NCBI GenBank assembly: GCA_017629215.1
Contig: JAGBXP010000051.1
Location: 62,001 to 126,000 of the forward strand
Direction: 5' to 3'
Source of the DNA: a bacterium
GTDB taxonomy: Bacteria > Cyanobacteriota > Vampirovibrionia > Gastranaerophilales > Gastranaerophilaceae
Length of the DNA: 64,000 nucleotides
Shown here one piece after another: positions 10,652-33,364 of this stretch (position 1 is the stretch's first letter; each line of letters starts with the position of its first letter). The position numbers were made by a program, and so were the translations under genes. Below the pieces are notes generated by a model. It was not told the DNA's origin. It made no database searches and saw only the letters and a program-made list of their open reading frames with translations.

Positions 10652-10688
10652 GGCAATTTTTTAAACAATAAATACTTTATATATATAA
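10652..10688 (+). promoter_or_regulatory. Shared promoter module, copy A (upstream of RHH gene)
   Basis: GGCAATTTT (10652-10660) is followed after exactly 14 nt by CTTTATATATATAA (10675-10688), 50 nt before the ATG. The same pair with the same spacing occurs at 17665-17701 and 33328-33364. Confidence 0.6.
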
Positions 10689-10737: not shown

Positions 10738-10926
10738 ATGGCAAGAGTATTGATTTCCATGCCTGAAAGTTTTTTAGGCAAAATTGACGAAGTAGCTGAT
10801 ATGGAAAGCAGATCACGTTCAGAGTTAATTCGTGAAGCGTTGAGAACTTATATCGCTAAGAGTCAAGTTAGAAAAACAGGATTAGCAGATAAAAATGCTA
10901 GAATTCTTGAGGCGCTATTGGATTAG
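10738..10926 (+). CDS. Ribbon-helix-helix DNA-binding protein (CopG/MetJ superfamily)
   Basis: This is a small transcription regulator or antitoxin-like protein. The 62 residues begin with the RHH beta-strand (RVLISMPESFLGKIDEVAD). The two helices follow with the typical turn SRSRSELIREALRTYIAKSQ. The C-terminus (KNARILEALLD) is a short helix that could contact a partner. No toxin reading frame lies next to it; what follows is a non-coding stretch with strong RNA structure. A clear AGAGGAG precedes the ATG, and the shared promoter module lies upstream. Family is secure; target genes are unknown. Confidence 0.85.
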   Translation: MARVLISMPESFLGKIDEVADMESRSRSELIREALRTYIAKSQVRKTGLADKNARILEALLD

Positions 10927-11085
10927 CAAAATTGGGGAAAAGAGGTCTTTCGCTCCGAGACTTAATTTTAAATAATAGTCAAAGATCTCTTTTAAATCGG
11001 AGCAATAACATAAAACTAAATTTATTTAGAATTTGGTTTAACTAGCTAAAAGACACGAGGAGAAAACACGAAAAACGCGAGGATA

Positions 11086-11142
11086 ATGGTAAACACAGTT
11101 AGGACATTATTAGAAAAACAAAAATTTATGGAATATAACTAA
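11086..11142 (+). CDS. Possible 18-residue peptide inside the structured RNA
   Basis: ATG at 11086, preceded closely by GAGGAT, opens an 18-codon frame (MVNTVRTLLEKQKFMEYN) whose stop codon lies in the loop of the terminator hairpin. This could be a leader-type peptide, but the GAGG to ATG spacing is short and chance is a real possibility. Confidence 0.2.
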   Translation: MVNTVRTLLEKQKFMEYN

Positions 11143-11160
11143 TATATTCCATTTTTTTTA
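11128..11160 (+). terminator. Intrinsic terminator of the structured RNA / RHH transcript
   Basis: TGGAATAT (11129-11136) pairs with ATATTCCA (11144-11151), followed by eight T. Confidence 0.8.
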
Positions 11161-17630: not shown

Positions 17631-17701
17631 TTTGTAAATTTATGTAACAAATATTGTAAAATTTAGCAATAATTACTAATAAATATACTTTATATATATA
17701 A
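17631..17701 (+). promoter_or_regulatory. Shared promoter module, copy B (upstream of 562-residue protein)
   Basis: TTTGTAAATTTA (17631-17642), 45 nt, then CTTTATATATATAA (17688-17701). AGCAATAAT (17665-17673) sits exactly 14 nt before the latter. The same three elements with identical spacings occur at 33294-33364. Confidence 0.6.
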
Positions 17702-17724: not shown

Positions 17725-19413
17725 ATGGTATTTAACATACTAAATACAACGAATTATGGAATGATGCAGAATCAAATGGCTGCGGGGCTATGGAATGCAG
17801 CAGCTCAAAATTGTAGTTTTTGGAGTGTAATGACACCAAGTTGTTTCCCGACTATTATGTTAGATCCAAGATTTCTATTACAACGAAATTCAATATTCCC
17901 TGCATTTGGTAATCAATCTAATAATCAATCTTGGCAAAATTGGATAATACCATCGAATAATCAAACTCAAGGTGGAAATCCTTGGGATGGTTATTGGGAG
18001 GCTTGGAATAAAAATAATAAAAAAGTTGAAACTGATGATAGCGAAGATGTAGCGAAAGAAGGTACTGTTACTAAAGAAACAAGAGTAGAAAATCTTACAA
18101 CTTTGTTGAAAGAAATTCAAAAGGAAACTGATGTAGCAGATGAAGCTATTAAGACAGCTTTGGAAGAAGCTGAAAAAGCTCCAACACCAGAAGAAAAATT
18201 AAACGCTTTAAACAAAGTTTTTGACAATGTTAGTATTAAATTTGATGATATAAAAAATTGTTTAGATCAGAAAGATATAGATTTATTAGTAGAAGCTGGA
18301 CTAGCTAGTAATAAATCAGAAAAAGAAATTGATGAACAAATAAATAAAATTAAAAAGAAGGTCAAAGAAATCAGCGACTCGAATTTCAATACAGGGACTA
18401 TAACTGGACTTGTTCGTGATAATAAAATTGACATCTTTGATTTAGTAGCAAAATATCCAGATATAATAACAGCTATTAATGCACAAAAAGCCAAAATAAT
18501 AGACCCAGAAGACCAAGTTTCTTGTAACGAGACAATCAAAGTTATTTGTGATAATTTAATTAAAAGAGCTAAAGCTATTGACGAAACAGGACTAAAAGAT
18601 GAAATTACAGCTCTAGAGAACGCTCTAACTGGGGAGAAATATGACAAAATACAAGAAGTATTTGACAAATTATATGTTGCTGCAAGATTGAAAGCAGAAG
18701 AAAAAGTTATCACTCATTTAAAAGCAAAATATAGTAATGAGATAGCTAACGATAAAACTTTTGATGTTGCAAATAAATTATCAGAAGTTGACCGATATAA
18801 GACTGCAGTCGATGAGTATAACGAAAAGAAAAAGAAAGAAGTAAAAGACACACCACCAGCAGCAGAAACACCAGCAGCAGAAACACCAGCAGCAGAAGCA
18901 GCAGCTGCTCAGACAAACAATAATGGTAAAGAAAAAACAGTAATATACCCACGGTATGGTGAATCTAGAGCAGAGGTAGTTTCTAATTTATTAGTTGGTT
19001 ATACTTATCCTACTGATGCAAGAGATGCGTCAAATTGTATTAAAGAGATTAACTGCGATCATATTTTTTATTTCTTAAGAAAATATAATGAATTAAATCC
19101 AAAAGAGGGTATATTCACTCAATTAGCAACAGAATGGGGTTTTGATACTGATCTAAATGGAGCATATACTAAAGAACAATGCATGAAACATTTAGCAGAA
19201 TGTATGATTGGATTTTTAGAGGGGTATGAAAAATTGTTTGAACAAGATAAAAAAGGAGAGTTGTTAGAACGAGTTAAAAAAGAACTAAAAATAGATATAG
19301 ATTTGTTAAATAAAGCTAAAATGAAACCACTATCATACGCAAGCGCACTTGATAATATTGCAAAGAAATATATACAAAAATTAGGTGAATTTACTATCTA
19401 CGTAAAAAAGTAG
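17725..19413 (+). CDS. Lineage-specific helical protein, 562 residues, unknown function
   Basis: I do not recognise this protein. The first 95 residues are rich in Asn, Trp, Gln and Met and lack a signal peptide (MVFNILNTTNYGMMQNQMAA; WQNWIIPSNNQTQGGNPWDG). Residues about 115-375 are charged and helical with coiled-coil character. A low-complexity Pro-Ala-Glu-Thr linker (repeats at 18856-18900) leads to a globular C-terminal domain of about 165 residues with four Cys. The N-terminal composition resembles proteins exported by other routes or stuck to surfaces, but that is guesswork. GAGGA lies 9 nt before the ATG, and expression is from shared promoter module copy B. Its last 20 nt overlap the convergent GT10 gene. 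Confidence 0.7.
   Translation: MVFNILNTTNYGMMQNQMAAGLWNAAAQNCSFWSVMTPSCFPTIMLDPRFLLQRNSIFPAFGNQSNNQSWQNWIIPSNNQTQGGNPWDGYWEAWNKNNKKVETDDSEDVAKEGTVTKETRVENLTTLLKEIQKETDVADEAIKTALEEAEKAPTPEEKLNALNKVFDNVSIKFDDIKNCLDQKDIDLLVEAGLASNKSEKEIDEQINKIKKKVKEISDSNFNTGTITGLVRDNKIDIFDLVAKYPDIITAINAQKAKIIDPEDQVSCNETIKVICDNLIKRAKAIDETGLKDEITALENALTGEKYDKIQEVFDKLYVAARLKAEEKVITHLKAKYSNEIANDKTFDVANKLSEVDRYKTAVDEYNEKKKKEVKDTPPAAETPAAETPAAEAAAAQTNNNGKEKTVIYPRYGESRAEVVSNLLVGYTYPTDARDASNCIKEINCDHIFYFLRKYNELNPKEGIFTQLATEWGFDTDLNGAYTKEQCMKHLAECMIGFLEGYEKLFEQDKKGELLERVKKELKIDIDLLNKAKMKPLSYASALDNIAKKYIQKLGEFTIYVKK
18856..18900 (+). repeat. 15-bp tandem repeat coding for a PAAET linker
   Basis: Three in-frame copies of ccagcagcagaaaca (the third with one change) encode Pro-Ala-Ala-Glu-Thr units joining the helical and C-terminal domains. 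Copy number is likely to vary between strains by slippage. Confidence 0.85.
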
Positions 19414-33293: not shown

Positions 33294-33364
33294 TTTGTAA
33301 ATTTACGAGCATGATATTTGTTAAAAAGGCAATTTTAAAATGTAAATGAACTTTATATATATAA
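33294..33364 (+). promoter_or_regulatory. Shared promoter module, copy C (upstream of GNAT-like gene)
   Basis: TTTGTAAATTTA (33294-33305), 45 nt, then CTTTATATATATAA (33351-33364). GGCAATTTT (33328-33336) lies exactly 14 nt before the latter. Spacings are identical to copy B, and copy A shares the last two elements. Confidence 0.6.

Follow-up and report, generated by a model that had tools for sequence, protein, structure and literature searches.

Positions 10927-11159 of the window, the whole 64,000-nucleotide stretch of DNA that was analysed, make up the predicted 3'UTR of the mRNA of an RHH (CopG-type) gene. On sequence grounds, this is read, with a probability of about 0.5, as a regulatory 3'UTR that has a conserved architecture in one genus of the Gastranaerophilales and carries repeats that would dock one factor. 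It lies between the stop codon and the terminator of its gene, its architecture is conserved, and this 3' tail of the RHH mRNA is previously undescribed. The part of the tail that is kept between species is a short repeated word, ACACGAG. The pseudoknot found in the window is probably the form that a quickly evolving folded block of this genus-wide 3' tail takes in a single species. The features of the region are:

10652..10687, + strand: promoter-like block, GGCAATTTTTTA ... TACTTTATATATATA, ahead of the RHH gene (own-genome pattern search; ortholog comparison)
10738..10926, + strand: RHH (CopG-type) gene, 62 aa, stop TAG (Pfam RHH_1, E 5.6e-10)
10934..10939, + strand: GGGGAA just 3' of the stop, common to a subset of the orthologs as TTGGGGA (sequence read)
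10938..10950, + strand: 5' arm of stem 1, AAAAGAGGTCTTT, 13 bp with one G-U (sequence read; shuffle statistics)
10952..10958, + strand: 5' arm of stem 2, GCTCCGA, 7 bp, perfect, crossing stem 1 (sequence read; shuffle statistics)
10959..10962, + strand: 5' arm of the 4-bp inner stem, GACT, which adjoins stem 1 (sequence read; predicted folds)
10977..10980, + strand: 3' arm of the 4-bp inner stem, AGTC (sequence read; predicted folds)
10981..10993, + strand: 3' arm of stem 1, AAAGATCTCTTTT (sequence read; shuffle statistics)
10997..11003, + strand: 3' arm of stem 2, TCGGAGC (sequence read; shuffle statistics)
11013..11039, + strand: second hairpin, 11 bp, AAACTAAATTT/GAATTTGGTTT (predicted fold)
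11053..11086, + strand: single-stranded repeat tract with ACACGAGGAGAA at 11053-11064, ACACGAAAAA at 11066-11075 and ACGCGAGGATAA at 11075-11086 (motif enrichment; predicted folds mostly unpaired)
11128..11159, + strand: intrinsic terminator hairpin ATGGAATATA/TATATTCCAT and T run (sequence read; predicted fold)

The three helices named in a preliminary description of the region (13, 7 and 4 bp) can all be read directly from the sequence, and two of them occur in the crossing order of an H-type pseudoknot at 10938-11003. The best crossing-helix stacking sum is -35.0 kcal/mol, compared with a mean of -18.1 (sd 2.3) for 500 dinucleotide shuffles of the 200 nt at 10927-11126. No other H-type candidate on either strand of the 64-kb window reaches -33, the runner-up standing at -31.3. 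Because none of the 500 shuffles reaches -35.0 and no rival in the window comes within 2 kcal/mol, the crossing complementarity is confirmed as real rather than chance pairing, and the earlier suggestion that the nested and crossing pairings exceed chance holds.

As a plain nested fold the element is ordinary (z -0.5). Two nested alternatives are near-equal in predicted energy, stem 1 with the 4-bp stem at -14.6 and stem 2 with the 4-bp stem at -12.3, and the predicted fold of 251 nt prefers stem 2 over stem 1. The linker between 10993 and 10997 has only 3 nt to span the 13 bp of stem 1, so the full knot would need stem 1 to be frayed by about four A-U pairs, or the helices to lie side by side; the 1-nt loop across the 7 bp of stem 2 is feasible, as reasoned from the coordinates. 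A knot with a frayed stem 1 and a two-state switch are equally allowed by the sequence. It is very unlikely that the element acts as a species-specific two-state switch or a ligand-binding pseudoknot, with stems 1 and 2 alternating to set the fate of the RHH mRNA. The closeness of the two energies and the complementarity far above chance would fit such a switch, but it is absent from all orthologs, has no match in Rfam, and belongs to a unit with no further gene to control.

H-type pseudoknots of viruses serve readthrough or frameshift. The knot in the window resembles these in its helix order and in lying 11 nt downstream of a UAG stop, but differs in that the 3-nt linker over 13 bp misfits the classical coaxial geometry and in not being conserved. 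Stop-codon readthrough was considered and rejected, as the extension would add just 12 codons (QNWGKEVFRSET) and is not conserved.

Searched at the DNA level, the 65 genomes of the genus hold no alignable copy of 10915-11060 beyond the source genome, and none of 46 distinct ortholog 3'UTRs has an equivalent knot. This leaves no homologous sequence in which the two stems could show covariation, and the proposal of a conserved, selected fold is not supported, every ortholog in the genus lacking it. A weak look-alike (z -2.2) occurs in L032, which shares the TTGGGGA start; a strong candidate knot in L017 sits at the terminator of that locus and is not equivalent. The view that the element belongs to no known family agrees with a search of Rfam 15, in which nothing exceeded the gathering score of any family and matches up to E 10 were implausible eukaryotic ones alone. 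The region matches its own genome once, and as a single copy with no phage or plasmid match it was rejected as a dispersed repeat or mobile element. An exact match of 20 bases to the viral contig L300 falls within an unrelated coding region of 49% GC and was taken as chance. The case illustrates that a pseudoknot may be genuine and far from random and yet be a local, species-level variant instead of a conserved element.

It is the layout around the knot that recurs. Within the genus, nearly every class-A ortholog shows the order stop codon, one or more hairpins, a purine-rich tract with ACACGAG(G/A)AA repeats, and terminator. The hairpins, approximately 10-50 nt past the stop, are unrelated in sequence between species, yet are stronger than chance. 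The UTRs fold better than their shuffles, with a mean z of -1.5 over 46 distinct sequences. Most of this excess lies within the first 75 nt, where the strongest hairpin has a mean z of -1.46 (one-sample p 1.6e-7), with the linker weaker at -0.78; predicted pairing is highest 10-50 nt after the stop. Compensatory changes in the post-stop helices amount to 4 pairs in the group L022/L023/L060/L068 and to 3 in L015/L019/L030, counts that are weakened by the hand-picking of these groups among close species, automatic clustering having joined all 46 sequences, and by the broken pairs also present in them. A helix at the site of the knot is therefore a regular feature, variable in sequence and in exact shape. 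The TTGGGG that follows the stop in some species is found 6 times in the UTRs of the genus, with 1.3 expected.

Most orthologs in the genus end in a related terminator, a GGAATTC/GAATTCC stem after AACAACCAT. The terminator in the window was missing from a simple terminator scan, since its stem contains only two G-C pairs, one short of the number that the scan requires. The preliminary description correctly placed the element after the RHH gene and ahead of that gene's terminator, and the 3'UTR is structured genus-wide. A riboswitch-like role had also been proposed; a riboswitch acting on the downstream gene is unlikely, because the element follows its own gene and the unit ends, at the terminator, short of the next one.

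Two features of individual 3'UTRs are recorded here. The window has an 18-codon ORF at 11086-11142 (MVNTVRTLLEKQKFMEYN) after GCGAGGATA, running into the terminator, with no counterpart in those UTRs of relatives that were read. In genera g43, g52 and g55 (L226, L245, L247 and L252), the RHH 3'UTR has imperfect tandem copies of the surroundings of the stop codon, GCAATACTAGAYTAATAG then GGGGAAA, or GGCATTACTTAAGATTTGGTTTGGTGGAAAA, an arrangement that suggests repeated duplication of the gene's end.

The word ACACGAG occurs 44 times in 6.3 kb of UTR, with 0.6 expected, and in 32 of the 46 UTRs, although the relatedness of the species inflates motif counts as it does helix counts. The window tract has one exact copy and two near-variants. 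The preliminary description had noted GAGGA repeats, and two copies are indeed present (11057-11061 and 11079-11083), but the true unit, and the conserved feature, is ACACGAG(G/A)AA. Overall, the interpretation given in that description is partly supported. ACACGAG continues as GA or AA, so GGA is not the core of the word. The motif is found in the RHH 3'UTRs of this genus, g44 and g45, and is not order-wide.

Within 7.4 kb of 3'UTR, CACGAG(G/A)A has 42 sense copies and none antisense, while the remaining 344 kb of the same loci hold a single copy on both strands together. This corresponds to a density of 5.65 per kb in the UTRs versus 0.003 per kb in the flanks, a difference of more than 1000-fold. 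Motif sites are predicted to be unpaired at 0.76, compared with 0.68 in shuffled flanks (p 2e-5) and 0.57 over all positions. The strict strand bias, together with this predicted openness, favours recognition as RNA over recognition as DNA. RHH proteins are typically DNA-binding autoregulators, and the repeats could instead form an array of operator sites for the CopG-type RHH protein beside its own gene. Such autoregulation is supported by the presence of the motif on both sides of the gene in g45 (L234 and L236). It is nevertheless quite improbable: all 42 copies are on the transcribed strand and 3' of the gene, their predicted pairing as RNA is lower than expected, and the motif is not enriched genome-wide, with 26 sites at no more than one mismatch versus 43 for a control pattern (these, like the other genome-wide motif counts, rest on pattern searches).

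A passive 3'UTR is also to be considered, one that stabilises the mRNA or separates neighbours, for which any helix with a terminator would suffice and the purine tract would be a bystander. The helices are unrelated between species and at times almost absent; in some orthologs the helix is weak, or the UTR is very short and holds a single copy of the motif. Other genera manage with 3'UTRs of 20-40 nt, terminators outside the genus having been called automatically. The genomes compared are mostly metagenome assemblies. A passive tract, however, needs no word such as ACACGAG, strand-specific and so much denser than in the flanks, and this explanation is considered unlikely. The passive 3' end and the DNA operator for the RHH protein remain the main testable rivals.

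In the regulatory 3'UTR proposed here, a helix block approximately 10-50 nt past the stop turns over quickly in sequence, taking in this species the form of a pseudoknot or of a mutually exclusive pair of helices. Behind it lies a tract that is rich in purines and unpaired over most of its length in predicted folds; it holds at least one and up to several ACACGAG(G/A)AA copies and is closed by the intrinsic terminator. The helix block would protect the tract against the terminating ribosome and against decay, keeping the repeats unpaired. Either an RNA-binding protein or a complementary small RNA, one single factor in each case, would dock at the repeats, and docking would either control the RHH mRNA itself or titrate the factor. 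In an alternative form, an RNA released or processed from the 3'UTR would be the active species. The sequence itself shows the presence, position and statistics of these parts, and the conservation, strand bias and predicted unpaired state of the motif; transcription of the tail, its binding, the factor and the effect are inferred. A more specific version is put forward tentatively: the tail may be a novel mRNA-borne sponge or autoregulatory 3'UTR of Melainabacteria without recognisable Hfq, in which the ACACGAG repeats would bind a dedicated partner, possibly the RHH protein, with freely evolving helices or pseudoknots as spacers. A genus-wide, gene-specific 3'UTR with an enriched, strand-specific word offers a testable handle on post-transcriptional control in uncultured gut bacteria.

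Hfq binding was rejected, as no recognisable Hfq was matched in any of the 28 genomes tested. CsrA and FliW are present in 27 of the 28 relatives, adjoining each other in all 27, and the tract contains GGA, so a sponge in which GGA motifs of the 3'UTR titrate CsrA, in the manner of CsrB or the flaA leader, was initially attractive. It was dropped, and now has little probability left, because ANGGA, the reported core of CsrA sites (PMC4894983), is depleted in the UTRs of the genus (42 versus 91.7 expected, z -6.3) and because GGA counts do not track CsrA. Across 116 3' flanks of RHH genes, taken from CsrA-plus and CsrA-minus genomes, the GGA count does not follow CsrA presence (35 genus- or family-level groups, p 0.75); this test covers all 3'UTRs and the ACACGAG tract is present in only a few genera, so CsrA may still have a genus-specific use. 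In addition, nearly half of the motif copies read CACGAGA, without GGA. Among 383 genomes of the order Gastranaerophilales, 153 have a CsrA match and the other 230 gave none, a division that follows genus lines inside one family; of the papers that a search listed on these uncultured gut bacteria, none mentions CsrA. In CsrA-minus genera (L177, L179, L180, L182, L185, L187, L190 and others), an RHH paralogue is followed by a second small ORF (MENxxYIMSSLDEYFEILDKE...), which stands behind a GGGGAAA ribosome-binding-like site.

Sponge RNAs of the CsrB/RsmZ type have fast-changing helices, a repeated short motif and a terminator at the end. The RHH 3'UTR has all of these, but its motif is another one, lies outside the loops, is attached to a coding gene and has fewer copies. 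Another comparison is the flaA mRNA of Campylobacter jejuni, a dual-function mRNA that titrates CsrA (PMC4894983). Both are coding mRNAs with repeated protein sites, here putative, in an untranslated region, both have helices with compensatory changes, and both come from genomes that have CsrA and FliW but lack a canonical antagonising small RNA. The sites in flaA are ANGGA in hairpin loops of the 5'UTR (PMC4894983), whereas here they are ACACGAG(G/A)AA in a 3'UTR tract predicted to be unpaired; the RHH 3'UTR is depleted of ANGGA and has no tie to the presence of CsrA.

The source genome, of 1.8 Mb, is by its nearest named records a member of Candidatus Gastranaerophilales (gut Melainabacteria). 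The RHH gene product passes the Pfam RHH_1 cut-off (39.3 versus 20.5 bits), and the protein is present in 56 of 57 relatives, mostly as two or three paralogues apiece. Its gene is flanked by a GARS/ATP-grasp-like gene upstream and an MFS gene downstream. The promoter-like block is kept ahead of RHH orthologs and also stands ahead of other ORFs; pattern searches for its second half give 14 exact sites and 37 sites at no more than one mismatch in the source genome, with 2 for the control. The motif, GGCAATTTTTTA then TACTTTATATATATA, occurs 13-50 nt upstream of many ORFs of this genome, and within the window at 10652-10687, 17686-17700 and 33349-33362. Several of these ORFs encode large proteins with no family assigned, for example 17725-19413, and the set resembles a regulon under an alternative sigma factor.
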